Of a stretch of DNA of 43,765 bases, positions 8,722 to 17,742 are shown piece after piece. Positions within the stretch are counted from its first letter, which is position 1. Each line of letters begins with the position of its first letter. The notes beneath the pieces are model-generated. The model did not search any database, had not been told where the DNA came from, and saw nothing but the letters and a program-made list of their open reading frames with translations. A program made the translations under genes and the position numbers. Origin of the DNA: a virus; IMG/VR virus record IMGVR_UViG_3300044225_002878, positions 1-43,765 of that record; one strand, 5' to 3'.

Positions 8722-9858
8722 TTATATATTCCTTAAAACTTTTTCATACATGGAACTAGCAAGTGCTTTCATCATTATTGATGGCACCATTCTTCCACAT
8801 CTCTCTGATCTCTGAGCCCACTTACCTGTCAACTTAAAATCATCTGGTAATGATGTGACTCTTTTTAATTCACCTAAAGTAAACTTTCTATCTTCTTCCC
8901 AATGACAAACTCCAGCAGTCTTTTCAGTTGCACCCATAGCAGTGATTGTAGGTGAAGGTTGAAACTGTGATGCAATCTTTAAATTAAAATGCCAACCTTT
9001 TGGATGATAGTCTGTGCCTGTGATAACTTTCTCTGGGTTACGTGGCATAAGAACACAAGTTTGTTTATAGTATGCTGTGTCTTTCCACATTCTTGTTAAC
9101 ATCTCAACTTCTTCTTTATCATATTCTAAACCATCAAACGCACCTTGTAAAGTAGTTATTGTTTTATTTTCTTGTGGAAATATAGATGATAATGTCATAA
9201 AATTTAAACCTACTTGATCCATAATATCATCTCTAACTGCCATAAAGAAAACTCTTCGTCTTCTTTGTGGAACTCCAAACTGTGAACAGTCATGTACTTT
9301 TGCAACTACTTGATATCCAATATCTTCAAATGTATTTTGTATTTTATTGAAATATTGTTTTGCCTCTCCAACTGTAAGACCTTCAACATTTTCTGCAATG
9401 ATAGTCTTTGGTCTAATCTTATCTGCAACTCTTAAAAACTCAAAGAACAAATCTTCAATGTTTGTGACTATCTTTCCGTCTGAATAAGATTTTGTTTTAC
9501 CAAATCCGTCACTGTGAACTGTTCCTTCTCTTGCCAATGTTCCACACATACTAAACGCTGAACATGGTGGTGATCCGTCTAATAATTCAAGTTCACCCTC
9601 TTTTATGTTTGCAATTTCTAAAAAATCTTTTCCGTCTAGTTCTTTTATGTCACCGTCAAGAATGGGTGTATTTGGATAATTGTCTTTGTAAGTATTTCTT
9701 GCTTCTTCGACAAACTCGTTTATTGCAAGTATCTTTCCACCTGCAAGACGATAACCTGTTGAACTTCCACCACCACCTGCAAAAGTAGAGATAACACGAA
9801 ACTTTTCTTGTGCCTCTCCGTCTAATACGTCTTTGATTAAGTAAGGTTTATATTTCAT
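8722..9858 (-). CDS. C5-cytosine DNA methyltransferase with Arg in motif X; candidate DNA carboxymethyltransferase
   Basis: 378 residues with the full C5-MTase motif set: motif I STFAGGGGSSTG at 24-35, motif IV GSPPCSAFS with catalytic C99, motif VI ENV at 156-158, motif VIII QRRRR at 198-202, a target-recognition region around 215-325, and motif IX/X at the end. Motif X normally reads GN(S/A)V; here it is GRMV at 355-358, and the spacing from the preceding LPDDF segment equals that of GFPDSY to GNSV in M.HhaI, so R356 replaces the conserved Asn. In M.MpeI the corresponding N374K/R change gives carboxy-SAM use (known for the engineered enzyme). With a CmoA-like gene directly downstream I infer 5-carboxymethylcytosine as product. 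No restriction enzyme is adjacent. The start overlaps the PP-loop gene stop (ATGA). Confidence 0.92.
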   Translation of the reverse strand: MKYKPYLIKDVLDGEAQEKFRVISTFAGGGGSSTGYRLAGGKILAINEFVEEARNTYKDNYPNTPILDGDIKELDGKDFLEIANIKEGELELLDGSPPCSAFSMCGTLAREGTVHSDGFGKTKSYSDGKIVTNIEDLFFEFLRVADKIRPKTIIAENVEGLTVGEAKQYFNKIQNTFEDIGYQVVAKVHDCSQFGVPQRRRRVFFMAVRDDIMDQVGLNFMTLSSIFPQENKTITTLQGAFDGLEYDKEEVEMLTRMWKDTAYYKQTCVLMPRNPEKVITGTDYHPKGWHFNLKIASQFQPSPTITAMGATEKTAGVCHWEEDRKFTLGELKRVTSLPDDFKLTGKWAQRSERCGRMVPSIMMKALASSMYEKVLRNI

Positions 9859-10676
9859 ATAAAATTTTCCAAAGTGCCTTTATTCTGTGCAATAATTGAC
9901 CAGTCACGACACACATCCATAATTCTTTTTCTATTATATAGGTTTATCTCTCTGTTGTCAAGAAGTTTCTCAAATATACTTGGTATCTCTGCGACAAGTT
10001 GTAAGTTTAAGTGTTTTTTTAATTTAAGATTATCAAACTCATGATAATGTTGTCTAATTAGATGTTTTTCATATGGTTTGTTTATTTGATCCCAATCAAA
10101 CTGTATGAAATAATTAAAAACTTCTTTGTTTAGATATGGTGCGATTAATATTTTATTATGTTCTTTACTTAACATCTCTAATTGTCTAACACCTGCTGGA
10201 TTATCAGATGAGAAATAATCAGTTCTAAACTTATCGAACTTTTCTTTTGTGTGTTTAAAATGTATCATTGCCTTTTTACTCAGACCATAATGTCCGTCTG
10301 CGGCAACACCAGATATAATAACTTTCTCTTTTATCTTAGGATACATGTACATGAAAGGCCAAGTACATTCGAACTGAACTTTCTTTTTACAATTATAATT
10401 GTGTGCCAACTTTTTAAAGTCATTGACTAAATTTTCAGTTGGCACTTCAATACTTGTAAAATTAAATCCAAACTTTTCACATACCTCTTGTGCTTTCAAA
10501 GAATCATAAGTAGGTTTGTCTTTTATGTGAAAAGAGTATCCATGTACCTTTAAACCGAGACGGTTAGAAGTAAATAGGCAAGTGTTGCTGTCAACGCCGC
10601 CAGATAAGAGAATAGCAACTTCATTTTCATTTTGTGACTCCTTTGTTATTATTGTTTCTAGTAAATTGTGTATCAT
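9855..10676 (-). CDS. PP-loop ATPase, asparagine-synthetase-like (AsnB C-domain type) with clamp-binding-like tail
   Basis: 273 residues. SGGVDS at 25-30 is the PP-loop (ATP pyrophosphatase) signature, and ISGVAADGHYG around 120-130 matches the SGEGADELFGG loop of asparagine synthetase B. The N-terminal glutaminase domain of AsnB is absent, so ammonia or another amine must come from elsewhere. Such enzymes activate a carboxylate as acyl-adenylate and form an amide. The C-terminal KGTLENFI resembles the polymerase tail QGTLEDFFA and PIP-box spacing. It overlaps gp43 (ATGA) on one side and the C5-MTase (ATGA) on the other. I infer it amidates a carboxylated DNA base; alternatives are small-molecule amidation or a thiolation/deazapurine-type PP-loop role. 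Confidence 0.8.
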   Translation of the reverse strand: MIHNLLETIITKESQNENEVAILLSGGVDSNTCLFTSNRLGLKVHGYSFHIKDKPTYDSLKAQEVCEKFGFNFTSIEVPTENLVNDFKKLAHNYNCKKKVQFECTWPFMYMYPKIKEKVIISGVAADGHYGLSKKAMIHFKHTKEKFDKFRTDYFSSDNPAGVRQLEMLSKEHNKILIAPYLNKEVFNYFIQFDWDQINKPYEKHLIRQHYHEFDNLKLKKHLNLQLVAEIPSIFEKLLDNREINLYNRKRIMDVCRDWSIIAQNKGTLENFI

Positions 10677-13147
10677 GCAAAAAAATCTTCTAGTGTTCCT
10701 TGTGTTCCGTAAGTTCTATCAACAAACCAACCTATCTTTTCAATAATAAAATTAAGTGGTTCAATAAATGATTTCTCAAATTGTAATTCATAATCAACTT
10801 TAAAATTAAGTTGTTTTGGAAGTGTTGTAATAAATGATATTGCTGAAGACTGATAAATGTTAGGTAGTTTTAAATATAAAAATTTAATCTTATCACCCTC
10901 TTGTATTAAAGGATAGTATCTGTTTAATTTATTCTTCTTTACAAGATGATTATATAATATTCCACCTTTGACATGTATCGGAGCACCTTTCTTAAATAAA
11001 GTATGTGTCTCAGACCATTTTGTTAAACCATTAACACTTCTAGGGTACGCAATCTCTTCAGGTTGCAATGTTAGAAACTCATCACGAAAGTTTTGTATAA
11101 ATGTATTTAATTCTTTTTCGTTACCAGACATCATAATCTTTAGTGCCTCTTTAATTTTCTTACGACAAGGTGCAGGTGTAGATGACTTAACTGCTTCTAT
11201 CCCCATAATTTTTAGTGTGGGTTCTTTGTATCTTACACCTTCTATATCGTGTGCATTTAGAATATATCTTTTCTTTGCAGTCCAAATACCTTTATCAGCA
11301 ATAACTTCTCTTTTCATTTGCATCTTTTGTTCGTATGCATTTAGATACTCTGCAAGTTCTTGATATGACTTATCAATAAATGGTTCAATCTTTTCTTTAG
11401 CAATCTTGTCTAAAAAATCAACAGGTTTATTTGGTTTTAATTTATTAATCAATGCATCAAATGTAATGTAAACAGAATCAGTATCAGATGCAATTACATA
11501 ATCTTTATCTTTAGTCTTTAAAAGATTATTCATATATTGATTTATCTTTTTTTCAATCCAACGAATAGATAACTGACCTGAAGTGGTTATGGCTTCTGCC
11601 ATAGTATGAGAATAATATCTAAACCAATTATTACCAATGGCACCATATGCTGAGTTGAGTGCAATCTTTTTTGCCATTTGAATATTATTAAAAGTAGATA
11701 TTTGTTTTTCATATTTACTATCTTTAGTATTTTCTAGATTTTGTTTTGCGTCTAACATTGCCCGTTTGAATTTTACTCTGTCATCATACATTTTCTGCAT
11801 CATCTCTGGTAAGAAACCTTTTTTATCAGTTCTAAACAAAGCACCATTAGGTGTCATCGTTGTATTTTTTAAAATAGATGTATCTATTTTTTTATCTAAT
11901 AGTTTATCAACGGACATATTAGGAACTGTCTTTTCACTTTTCATTGTCTCAGGTGAAATATTATACTGCATAATTAAATGTGGATACAATGAATTTAAAT
12001 CAAATGAAAGAACCCACTCATGCATACCTGTTTGTGGATCTTTTACATATGCACCTTCATACTTTTCAGATTTTTCTTTATCTTGTTTTTGTGGAACGAC
12101 TATACCCTTATCCATTAAATAATTGTGTATAAGAATATCCCAATACTTAACAGAACCTAAAACATCTGTATAATTAACTTTGGCTTCGTATGCCATAGTC
12201 AAACACAGATCAATGAGTTTCATTTTCTCTTCTAGTTTATCGACAATCTCAACGTCTGTTATATTGTAATCAATAAATGATTGAAAGTCATTTGTATACC
12301 AATCTCTAAATGTATCATACGGATTTCCGTCTTTTCTTTCGCCAAGTTCTACATATGCAATATGATCTAAACGATATGATTCTTGATTTGTATATGTAAA
12401 CTTTCTATACAAATCATAATAATCTAAAGCAGCGATACCTTGTATATCATAAACTTGATGACTGCGACCCATTGAGTAAATTGATTTAGATGATACTGAA
12501 CCCCATGGTGAAAGTTTTTTTAGATCATCTTCACCACAAAGTTTTTTTATACGATTACAAAGATAGGGTATGTCAAAAAATTCTGTATTCCAACCTGTAA
12601 TAACATCTGGTTGATTCATTTGCCAAAATTTTAAAAACTCATAAATTAATTCTTTTTCATTATCGCACTTAACATATGCAACGTCATTTCTATGTGTCTT
12701 GTATTCACCTACACCCCAAACGAATATTTGTTTATTGGAGTGATTTTTTATTGTAATAGAAAGTAAAGGTTCAATCGCATCTTGTGGATTAGGAAAACCA
12801 TTTTCACATGCAACCTCAATATCAATAGTTGCAATAAGTATTTCTTCAAGTGACCAATCTAAATTAGGATAGTTTTCATACAAAAAAGAATATGCGTATT
12901 GTGTATTACCATACAAAAGATGTGGTTGTTGTTTATATTGTTCAACCCACTCTTTTGCGTCTTTCATTGTTTGATGTTTTATGGGTGTAACATATTTACC
13001 TTCAAGTGTTTTGAAGTGAGTCTCACGCATCACTGGGCAATAAAGTGTCGGCGAATATTTTACTTTTCGATTTACTCTTTTGCCATCAATGACTTCTCGT
13101 AATAATAAATTGTTTCCCCATTGAGAAACATTAGTATAAAACCTCAT
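10673..13147 (-). CDS. 43: gp43 DNA polymerase, family B
   Basis: 824 residues (T4 gp43 has 898). 3'-5' exonuclease ExoI DIE at 109-111 (T4 D112/E114), ExoII-type region NTEFFD near 187-192, polymerase motif A SFDLNSLYPH with D383, motif B KKIALNSAYGA around 493-503, and motif C DTDS at 555-558. The tail QGTLEDFF at 816-823 is a canonical PIP-box pattern for binding the gp45 clamp. Catalyses phage genome replication with gp45, gp44/62 and gp41, all encoded here. A perfect TATAAT with TTGACT at 17-base spacing sits just upstream, placing +1 at or next to the ATG, so a leaderless transcript is possible. The stop overlaps the PP-loop gene. Confidence 0.98.
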   Translation of the reverse strand: MRFYTNVSQWGNNLLLREVIDGKRVNRKVKYSPTLYCPVMRETHFKTLEGKYVTPIKHQTMKDAKEWVEQYKQQPHLLYGNTQYAYSFLYENYPNLDWSLEEILIATIDIEVACENGFPNPQDAIEPLLSITIKNHSNKQIFVWGVGEYKTHRNDVAYVKCDNEKELIYEFLKFWQMNQPDVITGWNTEFFDIPYLCNRIKKLCGEDDLKKLSPWGSVSSKSIYSMGRSHQVYDIQGIAALDYYDLYRKFTYTNQESYRLDHIAYVELGERKDGNPYDTFRDWYTNDFQSFIDYNITDVEIVDKLEEKMKLIDLCLTMAYEAKVNYTDVLGSVKYWDILIHNYLMDKGIVVPQKQDKEKSEKYEGAYVKDPQTGMHEWVLSFDLNSLYPHLIMQYNISPETMKSEKTVPNMSVDKLLDKKIDTSILKNTTMTPNGALFRTDKKGFLPEMMQKMYDDRVKFKRAMLDAKQNLENTKDSKYEKQISTFNNIQMAKKIALNSAYGAIGNNWFRYYSHTMAEAITTSGQLSIRWIEKKINQYMNNLLKTKDKDYVIASDTDSVYITFDALINKLKPNKPVDFLDKIAKEKIEPFIDKSYQELAEYLNAYEQKMQMKREVIADKGIWTAKKRYILNAHDIEGVRYKEPTLKIMGIEAVKSSTPAPCRKKIKEALKIMMSGNEKELNTFIQNFRDEFLTLQPEEIAYPRSVNGLTKWSETHTLFKKGAPIHVKGGILYNHLVKKNKLNRYYPLIQEGDKIKFLYLKLPNIYQSSAISFITTLPKQLNFKVDYELQFEKSFIEPLNFIIEKIGWFVDRTYGTQGTLEDFFA

Positions 13148-13153
13148 GCAGTT

Positions 13154-13182
13154 ATTATACCATAATTATGAAAAATAGTCAA
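13154..13182 (-). promoter_or_regulatory. Sigma70-like promoter for gp43 (TTGACT-17-TATAAT)
   Basis: On the minus strand TTGACT (13182-13177), a 17-base spacer and TATAAT (13159-13154) precede the polymerase ATG at 13147. Counting the -10 box as -12 to -7 puts +1 on the A of ATG. The -35 lies in the last codons of the amidinotransferase gene. No good Shine-Dalgarno site is visible. Confidence 0.65.
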
Positions 13183-14347
13183 CTAATTTTCCTTCTCTTG
13201 CTAAATCTACTGAACAACAATGAGCACCACCAGACCAAAGAAAGTTCCAACGATTAACCCAAGGTATCATTTCAATATTATATTTTTTTAATTTATTTGC
13301 TAATTCTTTATCATAACCAGATGTGATCACTGTATTTTCGTCTAGTGATAAACAGTTAGCATCAAATCTTGTTTCTTGCGATACTCCAAGCAAATGGTGC
13401 CATGGATAATTTTTAACACCTTTTTCCTCACATAGTTCCTTTATTTGTTTACCAGAGTATATTGCTTTGTTTTCAATTAATATTACATCCCAATCTTTCA
13501 TGATGTCGGGTATGTGATTTTTATTCCATGCCAATACTAACCCTGGTCTTAATATAGAAATCTTTCCGTCAACATGACCATATGCATTCATCTCTACAAA
13601 TTGATGCTGTGGAAACTCTTTTTTCCACCATTCTCTACCATTATTAGTCATACTAATTTGAGAATGTTGATTAACTAATTTTGTTTTTGGATTTGAATGA
13701 GTATGAAAAATATGTTTTCCACACTTCATAAAAGCAGCAGTATCACCAATTATCTGTCCTTGATTATCATAAGATTGAATCTCTTTGTTTGATATATCAT
13801 TTTTTACATCAACATCATCTACTATATCTGTAGGGTTTCTTTCATAAATTGGAAATGGCATAGATATATATCTTGCCCCCTTTTCAAATTCATCTATGAG
13901 TATGTTTCTACAATTTAGATTTTCATACATCCTATCCCATGATGAAGTATATACTTCAAAAACAGTATTACCTATTTTTCCAATAGTATCTCTTACCTGC
14001 ATAGGATGACTCCACTCGGTTTCTATTGGATATATTACATCTGGTCTGACTACATAAGTTCCAAACTGTTTACATAGATCAGCAAGAACATCTAAATCCT
14101 CATTAGTCTCATCATGTATTCTTTTTAAACCTGCAAAATTACCCTCAACTAAGTCAAATAATCCCTCAGTTGTAGTCCTATTACCGTCGTATTCTATGTT
14201 TGAAAAGTGTTTATGTCTATCAGATATTGTTTTATCATAATTAAATAATAGTTTGTTTTTATAGTCTTTATTAAAATTACTTAAATCAAATGAACGACCA
14301 ATAATTACTTTTTGTAATTGTGTCCACTCATCATATACTGTTCTCAT
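13166..14347 (-). CDS. Amidinotransferase-family protein (glycine/arginine amidinotransferase-like)
   Basis: 393 residues from ATG 14347 (the upstream in-frame TTG at 14362 is disfavoured). Pentein-fold features of the amidinotransferase superfamily: GHVDGKISILRPG with H258 and D260, RFDANCLSLDE, and the C-terminal GGAHCCSVD with the expected nucleophile C377. An N-terminal WTQLQKVIIGR strand matches the usual start of the family. Members move an amidino group from arginine to an amine (glycine, lysine, aminated sugars) or hydrolyse arginine/dimethylarginine. Its placement between regA and gp43 inside the replication operon is unusual. It could feed a nucleotide or DNA modification pathway or alter host arginine metabolism; sequence alone does not decide. 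Overlaps RegA by 17 bases. Confidence 0.8.
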   Translation of the reverse strand: MRTVYDEWTQLQKVIIGRSFDLSNFNKDYKNKLLFNYDKTISDRHKHFSNIEYDGNRTTTEGLFDLVEGNFAGLKRIHDETNEDLDVLADLCKQFGTYVVRPDVIYPIETEWSHPMQVRDTIGKIGNTVFEVYTSSWDRMYENLNCRNILIDEFEKGARYISMPFPIYERNPTDIVDDVDVKNDISNKEIQSYDNQGQIIGDTAAFMKCGKHIFHTHSNPKTKLVNQHSQISMTNNGREWWKKEFPQHQFVEMNAYGHVDGKISILRPGLVLAWNKNHIPDIMKDWDVILIENKAIYSGKQIKELCEEKGVKNYPWHHLLGVSQETRFDANCLSLDENTVITSGYDKELANKLKKYNIEMIPWVNRWNFLWSGGAHCCSVDLAREGKLVDYFS

Positions 14348-14744
14348 CTTTAGTCTTTCCAATATTATATTTTGTTTCTAAAGTCCATTCAGACTTTTCT
14401 TTGAAACTTATAATTTTGATTTGACTGAGTGGTGATACGTTTTGTATTTCACCTGTAACATCAATCAAACCCCAATCTTTCAATAGACTAGCAATTCTGT
14501 TTCTTCTTCCTATATCGTTATCTGTGAGATTTGTTTCTTTACCATCAAGTGCAAATAGTTCTTTGAAATGTACTATGTAATACTTACCTTGTTTGTGAAG
14601 AATATGACAAGACTGATATAATTTTTTTTCTTTTCTTGAAGCCACACCGATTCTAGATAGTGTCTCTCTAACCTTTAAAAAATCATCAGGTTCTTTTAGA
14701 GTAACTTCAAGCATATCATCTTTGTTAAAATTAACGTTTTCCAT
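14331..14744 (-). CDS. regA: RegA translational repressor
   Basis: 137 residues, clearly collinear with T4 RegA: LEVTLKEPDDFLKVRETLSR, then LYQSCHILHKQGKYYIVHFKE, and RRNRIASLLKDWGLI near the middle. T4 RegA binds initiation regions of early mRNAs such as gp44, gp45 and its own and represses translation. It has ten extra N-terminal residues relative to T4 because ATG 14744, with an AAAGGCGGA site, is used; the T4-equivalent start would be 14714, which has no ribosome site. It overlaps the gp62 stop and is followed by the amidinotransferase gene rather than directly by gp43. Confidence 0.95.
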   Translation of the reverse strand: MENVNFNKDDMLEVTLKEPDDFLKVRETLSRIGVASRKEKKLYQSCHILHKQGKYYIVHFKELFALDGKETNLTDNDIGRRNRIASLLKDWGLIDVTGEIQNVSPLSQIKIISFKEKSEWTLETKYNIGKTKDENSI

Positions 14745-15126
14745 GTTGTCCGCCTTTATTCAATTTTTCCTTTATCGTTTTTATTTGTTCATCGTTAAGT
14801 ATGCTTAGAGCAGACTTTGATTTTTCATTACTATAACCATAATACTCTTTTACATACTCTATATCTTTAGATTTGCTTGACTTCATCCACGGTGCAAATC
14901 TCTTACGAGTCCTTAAACTATTTAGTAAGAAATCATATTGTAGTTTGTTATCTAAATGATGTAATCTGTTCATTTCATTTACTAACATAATAGTATCACC
15001 GAATGGTGATAAACACTTATTAACAATATATGCAGGGTACTTTTTTTCCCACATAACATCATCTGTTTCCATTAAATTATTTTTTTGATAATTAATAGAG
15101 TTCAAATATTCTTTCAATTCATACAT
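14731..15126 (-). CDS. 62: gp62 clamp-loader small subunit
   Basis: 131 residues from ATG 15126 with GGAG eight bases upstream. It resembles the short gp62 of marine T4-like phages: YIVNKCLSPFGDTIMLVNEMN, LQYDFLLNSLR, KRFAPW and VKEYYGYSNEKS. With four gp44 subunits it forms the complex that loads gp45. It is shorter than T4 gp62 (187). In T4 it follows gp44 directly, but here three accessory genes intervene (short aminotransferase, glycosyltransferase, radical SAM). Overlaps RegA by 14 bases. Confidence 0.9.
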   Translation of the reverse strand: MYELKEYLNSINYQKNNLMETDDVMWEKKYPAYIVNKCLSPFGDTIMLVNEMNRLHHLDNKLQYDFLLNSLRTRKRFAPWMKSSKSKDIEYVKEYYGYSNEKSKSALSILNDEQIKTIKEKLNKGGQHGKR

Positions 15127-16150
15127 TACGAACACTCCATTTATAATATTCTATAAGATGAGTTAAAGTATCCATAAACTTTATATCATCTTTACTTGGT
15201 TCTATCTCTTTCATATTTTTTAAAGCATCATCTATTGATGATTGCCAAGTATTACCTAAAATGTGACGTTCACTTCCTTCTCTATCTAAAAATGCAGCCT
15301 CACTATAATAATACAAATCACCATTTGGATCAAGATATATTTTAGTTTGTGGTGATTGTTTTTTGTCTAAATGTAAAAAATCACATTTAATTAATTTACT
15401 TTTTCTTCCTCTTAGTAAATCGTACATTGCATATCCATAATGAACTTTAACACCACGTTCTTTTGATACATTATCAAATTCATTTAGGATATCTTGAAAC
15501 TTATTTCTATCATTTATCTCATACTGAAAAGAGAAATCTTCTCTTAAACTTAGTTCTTCTACTCCACCTATGTCATCAATGTAATCTAAAATTTTTAAAA
15601 GTTTTTCAACGTTCTTTGGTAATACAACATAATTTAATTTAACTTTTCTATCTAATAATTTTAAATTATTTTTTACTATTCTATAACCTTTTTCATTTCT
15701 AGACGTTGCAGTATATTCTTCTTCATCAATACCATATAAGGATATTCTTAAAGAATCTAAGTTTACGACATATTCATTTTTTTTAATATAGTTTTGTGTC
15801 AACATAAAACCATTTGTTATCATTCTTGACTTCATACCCACATCATATAAATCTTTACATATTTGATTTAGATAAGGACTTGTCATGGGTTCAAGTCCAC
15901 CCCCAATGTTAATTTGTGCTCTTCCTTTATTCTGATAAATTACATCTTTATAAACTTGATAATGTTTTTCCTCTTTTATGAACTTCGCATCATAGTTTCT
16001 ACCACAGAATGTGCATTCATACATACAAGATAAACCCGGCACAAAAACTATTGTGTGTGGATAATGATACTCTCCTTTTATAGCTGCATCCATGTGTGAT
16101 CCAAATTCTCTAATGGACTGTATCTGCTCTGTTGAAAAATTCTCTAACAA
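15119..16150 (-). CDS. Radical SAM enzyme of unknown substrate
   Basis: 343 residues. CMYECTFC at 42-49 gives the CxxxCxxC [4Fe-4S] site (C42, C46, C49), and NIGGGLEP around 82-89 is the GGE-type SAM-binding motif. A core beta/alpha barrel with SLYGIDEEEY and LDPNGDLYYYSE follows. No clear SPASM cysteines appear; a lone C is near 266. The start is taken as TTG 16150 with GGAGCGAAG upstream; ATG 16093 is an alternative that still keeps the cluster. It lies between a glycosyltransferase gene and gp62. Substrate unknown: sugar, nucleotide and peptide modification are all possible. Confidence 0.85.
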   Translation of the reverse strand: MLENFSTEQIQSIREFGSHMDAAIKGEYHYPHTIVFVPGLSCMYECTFCGRNYDAKFIKEEKHYQVYKDVIYQNKGRAQINIGGGLEPMTSPYLNQICKDLYDVGMKSRMITNGFMLTQNYIKKNEYVVNLDSLRISLYGIDEEEYTATSRNEKGYRIVKNNLKLLDRKVKLNYVVLPKNVEKLLKILDYIDDIGGVEELSLREDFSFQYEINDRNKFQDILNEFDNVSKERGVKVHYGYAMYDLLRGRKSKLIKCDFLHLDKKQSPQTKIYLDPNGDLYYYSEAAFLDREGSERHILGNTWQSSIDDALKNMKEIEPSKDDIKFMDTLTHLIEYYKWSVRNV

Positions 16151-17153
16151 ACTTCGCTCCGTTCATATCAAAACTTATTGGTTTTTTATTAATCACTTTA
16201 TATATTGTATCTGTTAATGAATCAATTGTAACATCGTCAATTAATAATACTTTCCCACCACCTATCTCTTCATATCTTTTTGCTCTATAGTGTTCCTCTT
16301 TATCAATGATTACACCATTATTATCATATACATCATTTGATGTTAATTCATTTGGAATCATGATTGTGGGTGTATGTGTGACATTCATATCTATAAATGA
16401 CATTGCACCAAACTGATTTATTGATAATTCGTGTGATGCAAGTAAAATTCTATAACCATTTGTATCTGGTCTTGGAACAATATTTACATTTTCTTTTTGT
16501 AGTCTATTTAATAAATTACTTGATGTTTTATCACCAACTATGAAAGTCCAATCACCACCTATTCTATTTTTAACATCTAGTGCAACATTATAATATTTTT
16601 CAACATGTGGATACCAATCACCACCAGATACTAAATATCCATTTCTGTGTGTATTATATTTAATTGGTTTGGTAACATAAGATGAACTAATTAAAGGTAC
16701 ATCTATGATTTGATTATGAATAAATTCTTTTGGATTTATAAAGTTATCATCAGTATGAAAAATTATACCGTTGTAATACTCATTAAGAATATCACTATGA
16801 AACCAATTTTCGCTTGGTCTAATCCATGGTATATCTCTTTCCAAAGAATAAATTTGTTTATCCTTTGCATGATCTAAAATATCCATAATACCTTTATGAC
16901 GATTTAAACTTTTATTAAAATGTGAATGCCAACTATATCTACCAAATGGAAATCCTTCAGTAACAATTATGTCTGGGTTATATTCAATGTATTTAACAAA
17001 CATATCATTATGAAATTTATCAAAAAATTCTGTATCGTTTGCAAATACTGGTTTAGTTAAAATTAAACTATCATTTATATGATCACAAAATGTTTTTACT
17101 CTATTGATATGACCATAACCTGTAATACTTTGTACTAAGAAAAGTGTTTTCAT
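16110..17153 (-). CDS. GT-B-fold glycosyltransferase-like protein
   Basis: 347 residues. The N-terminal LVQSITGYGHINR (residues 6-18) is the G-x-GH-x-x-R loop of GT-B enzymes related to MurG and UDP-glycosyltransferases. A second Rossmann half includes GYLVSGGDWYP, FIVGDK and an INQFGAMSFIDM helix start. A nucleotide-sugar donor is likely; the acceptor is unknown. It lies one base after the short aminotransferase gene and overlaps the radical SAM gene by up to 41 bases, so these three form a cassette inserted between gp44 and gp62. Confidence 0.7.
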   Translation of the reverse strand: MKTLFLVQSITGYGHINRVKTFCDHINDSLILTKPVFANDTEFFDKFHNDMFVKYIEYNPDIIVTEGFPFGRYSWHSHFNKSLNRHKGIMDILDHAKDKQIYSLERDIPWIRPSENWFHSDILNEYYNGIIFHTDDNFINPKEFIHNQIIDVPLISSSYVTKPIKYNTHRNGYLVSGGDWYPHVEKYYNVALDVKNRIGGDWTFIVGDKTSSNLLNRLQKENVNIVPRPDTNGYRILLASHELSINQFGAMSFIDMNVTHTPTIMIPNELTSNDVYDNNGVIIDKEEHYRAKRYEEIGGGKVLLIDDVTIDSLTDTIYKVINKKPISFDMNGAKFVREFFNRADTVH

Positions 17154-17154
17154 A

Positions 17155-17742
17155 TTAAATCATATAATCTGTAACAGGTGTATACCAATCCCAATTTTTT
17201 TCTATTGGTTTTTTATCTTTTACTTTTTCAAAATTGTTTAGTCCTAACTCTGCTTTATCAGATGTCATATAATAATGATAACCCATACCAAGTTTTTGTT
17301 CATAGTATGGTGTATCGCTTCTATCTCTACCATCATAAACTAATTTAATTAAATCATCGTATTTATTTTTATCATCTAATAAAATTATACCACCTCTATC
17401 TGTAGATAAATGTTTTCTTTTAAAAAAACTTAAACACATCAAAGTGCCTGACACATAACCATTTCTTTTCCAATAAACAGCCGCATCAATTACTTTATTA
17501 GTTAAGTGATGATACCCAATCCATTTTTCATCAGTGAATTCATATTTCCAACCATTTTTTATTATCATATATGGCACTGAAACATAAGTATGTTTAGGTA
17601 TCTTTATATTTGCATAGTCTGTAATTCTAATAGAGAGTTCTAGTGCATTCGTACAACAATCAGTGGCGACTGCATATGGAGCACCAAAAAAATTTGCAAT
17701 TGTTTTTTCAAACTTATCTACTGATTCATATTCTTTGTTCAT
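17155..17742 (-). CDS. Short DegT/DnrJ/EryC1/StrS-family aminotransferase-like protein
   Basis: 195 residues, about half of a normal DegT-family sugar aminotransferase (about 370). FFGAPYAVATDCCTNALELS at 18-37 matches the cofactor phosphate-binding start, IPKHTYVSVP at 48-57 is the typical second motif, and LSFFKRKHLSTDRGG has K110 at the PLP-lysine position (SFHxxKxLxxGEGG in the family). The C-terminal small domain is missing or replaced by about 70 residues ending WYTPVTDYMI. No frameshift remnant follows, so it looks like a stable compact form. ATGA overlap with gp44. Likely role: amination of a nucleotide-linked sugar. Confidence 0.75.
   Translation of the reverse strand: MNKEYESVDKFEKTIANFFGAPYAVATDCCTNALELSIRITDYANIKIPKHTYVSVPYMIIKNGWKYEFTDEKWIGYHHLTNKVIDAAVYWKRNGYVSGTLMCLSFFKRKHLSTDRGGIILLDDKNKYDDLIKLVYDGRDRSDTPYYEQKLGMGYHYYMTSDKAELGLNNFEKVKDKKPIEKNWDWYTPVTDYMI

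Follow-up and report, generated by a model that had tools for sequence, protein, structure and literature searches.

The window, meaning the whole stretch of 43,765 bases analysed here, comes from an IMG/VR virus record and is a portion of a T4-like phage, encoding a DNA polymerase, RegA, the clamp and clamp loader, a UvsX-like recombinase and a DnaB-like helicase. Its DNA polymerase has its top match in Methylophilales phage Melnitz (64%), followed by cyanophages at 53-54%. The transcription order on the minus strand is DNA polymerase, cmoY, cmoX and cmoA (Table 1), with 4-base overlaps at the DNA polymerase/cmoY and cmoY/cmoX junctions, and cmoA lies directly downstream of cmoX, its start two bases past the cmoX end. 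At 15119-17742 lie genes that together suggest amino-sugar chemistry in this phage, for a glycosyltransferase resembling GT28, a short aminotransferase of the DegT type and a radical SAM protein that is closest to DesII, the dTDP-4-amino-4,6-dideoxyglucose ammonia-lyase.

Table 1. Coordinates of the cassette, its motif X codon and the flanking genes in the window
Feature	Position	Strand	Basis
DNA polymerase	10673-13147	(-)	
cmoY: stand-alone asparagine-synthetase-type (ATP pyrophosphatase) amide ligase, 273 aa	9855..10676	(-)	Asn_synthase 1e-12; 45% to SpCmoY; model pLDDT 94
cmoX: DNA cytosine C5-carboxymethyltransferase (predicted), 378 aa	8722..9858	(-)	Pfam DNA_methylase; 8yf3 473 bits; 59.6% identity to SpCmoX; motif IV SPPC (nucleophile Cys99), motif X GRMV
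Arg356 codon AGA, motif X carboxylate-binding position (predicted)	8791..8793	(-)	Codon read and SpCmoX alignment
cmoA: carboxy-SAM synthase (predicted), 239 aa	8000..8719	(-)	E. coli CmoA 4gek 1.2e-19; TIGR00740 100.6 bits; 52% to assayed SpCmoA
Amidinotransferase-like protein, 398 aa, between regA and DNA polymerase	13166..14362	(-)	HsvA 1.5e-14; inosamine-phosphate amidinotransferase (StrB1) 5e-11

Motif X of CmoX and its published relative

The cmoX reading frame is intact, and its product matches Pfam DNA_methylase over its full length (E 3.5e-51) and has the C5-methyltransferase fold with SPPC and the catalytic Cys. On the minus strand, positions 8796-8788 read GGA AGA ATG (G-R-M) and are followed by GTG for V, in the context SERCGRMVP, so that motif X is GRMV where ordinary C5-methyltransferases have Asn in GN(S/A)V. 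The sequence-only reading had reported this arginine and its codon exactly, and had called the register secure, a claim upheld by three alignments. The HMMER alignment with 8yf3 runs end to end and places R356 on R350; the M.HhaI alignment stops at query residue 357 and chain residue 306 (the query being numbered from residue 2), in agreement with R356 on N304; and the two profile HMMs used to read the motif X residue gave 0 disagreements across all proteins aligned by both.

A natural system of this kind was described by Yang et al. (Nat Commun, Dec 2025; PMC12783734) in Synechococcus phage S-B43, which forms 5-carboxymethylcytosine via CmoX, the phage CmoA supplying carboxy-SAM and the ATP-dependent ligase CmoY joining glycine to the 5-carboxymethylcytosine carboxylate. 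In the S-B43 CmoX structure (PDB 8YF3), bound carboxy-SAM is contacted through its carboxylate by Arg350, which takes the place of M.HhaI Asn304; the wild-type enzyme accepts carboxy-SAM and not SAM, the R350N variant accepts neither, and the recognition motif is GC (PMC12783734). The biochemistry, the structure and the in vivo product of the S-B43 enzymes are all published, and the same association of Arg with CmoA was reported for thousands of sequences (PMC12783734).

All cofactor-contacting residues named for SpCmoX, together with the nucleophile, are kept in the window protein: F26, E48, F49, D70, C99 and R356 correspond to F25, E47, F48, D69, C98 and R350. The AlphaFold model of the window CmoX (pLDDT 90) has 8YF3 as its best structure, with a TM score of 0.96 by target length at 1.9 A, and all M.HhaI entries rank below. 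As the R350N variant of the S-B43 enzyme accepts neither SAM nor carboxy-SAM, an R356N change in the window CmoX is predicted to abolish activity and not to confer SAM use. The proposal that a natural arginine with a CmoA-like neighbour marks carboxy-SAM use holds in that the nearest solved homologue is a proven CmoX and in that Arg and CmoA co-occur (see below), but its premise that this property was known for an engineered enzyme only does not, the natural system having been published in December 2025. The observation is confirmed, and its interpretation as a carboxy-SAM-dependent C5-carboxymethyltransferase is supported; the interpretation is not new, the window system belonging to an already published kind whose central surprise is already in print.

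Co-occurrence of arginine and CmoA

The association was examined in a sample of about 440 C5-methyltransferases from viral contigs, from bacterial and archaeal genomes (one scan) and from named phages. The viral contigs were searched with four queries that differed in breadth (the window protein itself, the methyltransferase of Melnitz, and two profiles, one mixed and one of ordinary phage methyltransferases) and with a fifth seeded by a Staphylococcus SPbeta-like methyltransferase. Among 446 proteins, query copies included, the motif X residue was Arg in 226, Asn in 115, Leu in 82, Met in 17, Gly in 4, and Asp and Lys in 1 each, the lone Lys being probably a misaligned end. When proteins with at least 2.5 kb of DNA on both sides were clustered at 70% identity, CmoA was present in the locus for 40 Arg clusters and absent for 5, versus 2 and 71, respectively, for non-Arg clusters (Fisher P = 1.8e-23, a value to be taken as a guide and not a measure, as the sample is skewed to CmoX relatives, most queries being CmoX-like, and the clusters are partly dependent). 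Arginine is thus not common in C5-methyltransferases that lack a CmoA-like partner; in this broad sample it is found almost solely in enzymes sharing a locus with CmoA, which bears out the earlier suggestion that a natural Arg beside CmoA is unlikely to be due to chance, and chance substitution was ruled out on this basis.

Of the five Arg exceptions, three have CmoA elsewhere in their own record (the named giant phages Yoloswag and fHe-Yen9-02, and L169), one (L415) has a weak CmoA match of 33% identity in its genome bin, and for the last (L153) no CmoA was found within its 34.7-kb fragment. One of the two non-Arg exceptions (L105) is a second, Asn-type methyltransferase on a contig whose Arg-type methyltransferase adjoins CmoA. 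The other (L277:7947-9646) is a Staphylococcus SPbeta-like phage in which cmoA directly adjoins a C5-methyltransferase with Gly in motif X (GGVI); Arg is therefore not the sole residue seen next to CmoA, and this Gly is possibly an alternative fit for carboxy-SAM. On bacterial genome contigs, otherwise similar methyltransferases read ERLGRAVPP with CmoA adjoining and ARIGNSVPP without it. Arg-type CmoX homologues with an adjoining CmoA occur in bacterial assemblies (L368-L447), for instance in Nonomuraea, Streptomyces and Verrucomicrobia, where they possibly reside in prophages; several Verrucomicrobia assemblies carry many CmoX copies on separate contigs. The marine Melnitz family (Melnitz itself, L087, and L171-L250), whose replication module is related to that of the window, has a C5-methyltransferase whose motif X residue is Leu and in whose vicinity no CmoA was found. 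The co-occurrence is independent evidence that, across very diverse phage and bacterial C5-methyltransferases, a single motif X residue, Arg, is a predictor of carboxy-SAM use, making carboxymethylation readable from sequence.

Two other accounts of the arginine were weighed against this one. A sequencing or assembly artefact can be dismissed, as the same CmoX (100% identity) recurs on contigs L003-L008, which are identical or nearly so and come from independent samples, Arg also occupies the site in relatives as low as 58% identity, and no point was found in favour of an error. It is also very improbable that the window CmoX is an ordinary SAM-dependent methyltransferase in which Arg drifted into a tolerant site while the CmoA-like neighbour serves tRNA or another purpose. 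Motif X is indeed not fully fixed, since the site in C5-methyltransferases can also hold Leu, as in the Melnitz family, or Met, as in 17 proteins; however, Arg is distributed non-randomly and goes together with CmoA, the nearest solved homologue uses carboxy-SAM only, and cmoY lies in the same operon as cmoX.

Conservation of the cassette and the appended amine

Within the window's phage cluster, protein identity is 89-93% for CmoX, 78-79% for DNA polymerase, 81-85% for UvsX, 74-81% for the helicase, 54-62% for CmoA and 45-56% for CmoY, so that few genes in the region compared are as well conserved as cmoX. A recent horizontal sweep was considered for this high conservation and rejected: third-codon-position identity is 60-65% for CmoX and about 53-63% for neighbouring genes, and this closeness fits strong purifying selection on CmoX, together with fast change of the ligase, better than a recent transfer of cmoX. 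In some more distant relatives the ligase either matches weakly and is longer, at about 460 aa (L073-L081), or is undetectable in the DNA examined; phages RN05-S and S-CRM01 encode CmoA and CmoX but no CmoY over the part read. In L077-L081, a pair of tandem CmoX paralogues, each with the motif X Arg, stands beside a long synthetase (with CmoA as well where the contig extends). In giant Yersinia/Erwinia-type phages (L085:5992-8070, L088:3881-5989 and L169:4600-6768), CmoX is interrupted precisely between SPP and the catalytic Cys by a long insertion, which begins with Cys and finishes in VHN ahead of the catalytic Cys; it looks like an intein, in which case splicing would be required for the active site.

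The window CmoY is a stand-alone asparagine-synthetase-type domain with SGGxDS within the CmoX cluster, and its model has beta-lactam synthetase and asparagine synthetase as best folds. A role in the queuosine/7-deazaguanine pathway, raised by a QueC match in Pfam (5e-6), was rejected given this fold and the best match to CmoY. The product of the amidinotransferase-like gene has the arginine:glycine amidinotransferase fold, and in its matches to HsvA and StrB1 the Cys and His-Asp regions align. What the slot between regA and the polymerase gene holds varies among related phages: some have an amidinotransferase there (56-100% identity), Melnitz and L050 have an ATP-grasp protein resembling RimK, and in others the slot is empty. 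This putative accessory amidinotransferase could modify the attached amine; its patchy presence speaks against an obligatory part in the pathway, and a fixed role is not supported, as only some cassette-bearing phages have the gene.

With CmoX at 89-93% identity and the ligase at 45-56% across related phages, the attached amine may vary, and the appended group may differ among these phages, judging from the divergence of their ligases. It is possible, albeit rather unlikely, that the window cassette makes 5-carboxymethylcytosine but its ligase adds an amine other than glycine, such as a different amino acid or a guanidino compound made available by the amidinotransferase. The low identity to the glycine ligase SpCmoY, the ligase divergence among phages with near-identical CmoX, the published finding that ligase clusters differ in active-site residues (PMC12783734) and the HsvA/StrB1-kind gene just upstream of the polymerase gene are in its favour. 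However, the window CmoY aligns with SpCmoY along its length and retains the ATP motif and most blocks, and the amidinotransferase is absent from many cassette-bearing phages and may be unrelated. Somewhat more tentative still is the broader idea of a fixed carboxymethyl handle with a ligase that evolves or is swapped quickly, by which different amines would end up on the same cytosines in close relatives, that of the window being perhaps non-glycine and perhaps involving the amidinotransferase. Fast ligase divergence beside a near-invariant CmoX suggests that the outer group of the base is the object of an arms race, and the diversity of CmoY represents a ready enzyme set for putting different amines on DNA.

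Proposed pathway and comparison with known systems

The preferred reading, to which a probability of about 0.94 is assigned, is that this T4-like marine phage genome carries a complete CmoY-CmoX-CmoA cassette and carboxymethylates its own cytosines, an amine then probably being added. CmoA would convert SAM and prephenate to carboxy-SAM. CmoX would flip a cytosine, most likely in GpC, Cys99 would attack C6, and the carboxymethyl group would be moved onto C5, with the carboxylate of carboxy-SAM pairing with Arg356 so that carboxy-SAM is selected over SAM; the modified phage DNA would be shielded from restriction enzymes. The direct observations comprise the sequence, the register, the conserved catalytic and cofactor residues, the fold, the gene neighbourhood and the co-occurrence, and the chemistry of the window CmoX, its GC specificity and its carboxy-SAM use are predicted by analogy with the S-B43 enzymes. 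The window proteins share no more than 45-60% identity with the assayed ones, so that GC specificity and glycine as substrate are extrapolated. GpC depletion was dropped as a trace of modification, the GpC odds in the window (0.89) amounting to a mild depletion that speaks neither for nor against cytosine modification.

The closest known system is that of phage S-B43, whose SpCmoX (A0A514ABG7, PDB 8YF3) has in common with the window protein the fold, SPPC, the named cofactor residues, Arg at the position of M.HhaI Asn304 and the clustering with CmoA and CmoY. However, the CmoX proteins are 60% identical, the window represents a different T4-like lineage, and the gene order is Y-X-A in the window and A-Y-X in S-B43. 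The two CmoY proteins are both stand-alone synthetase domains without a glutaminase, carry the ATP motif SGGVDS and align over their full length, but they are 45% identical, and amine specificity, known for the S-B43 enzyme, is extrapolated for the window. The window CmoA resembles CmoA of S-B43 and E. coli (TIGR00740) in its full-length match and family signature blocks; it is 52-56% identical to the assayed SpCmoA, as expected of a carboxy-SAM synthase, but its score against TIGR00740, the model of the bacterial tRNA-pathway CmoA, is far under the curated cut-off (193.3 bits), and by these scores it is classed as a phage CmoA homologue and not a TIGR00740 equivalog. In M.MpeI N374K, the motif X Asn is likewise replaced by a basic residue holding the carboxylate, but that enzyme is engineered, has Lys and is CpG-specific, whereas the window CmoX is natural, has Arg and is predicted to act at GpC. 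M.HhaI and ordinary C5-methyltransferases share the fold and the catalytic mechanism with the window CmoX, but they use SAM as donor and have Asn304 in motif X where the window CmoX has Arg.
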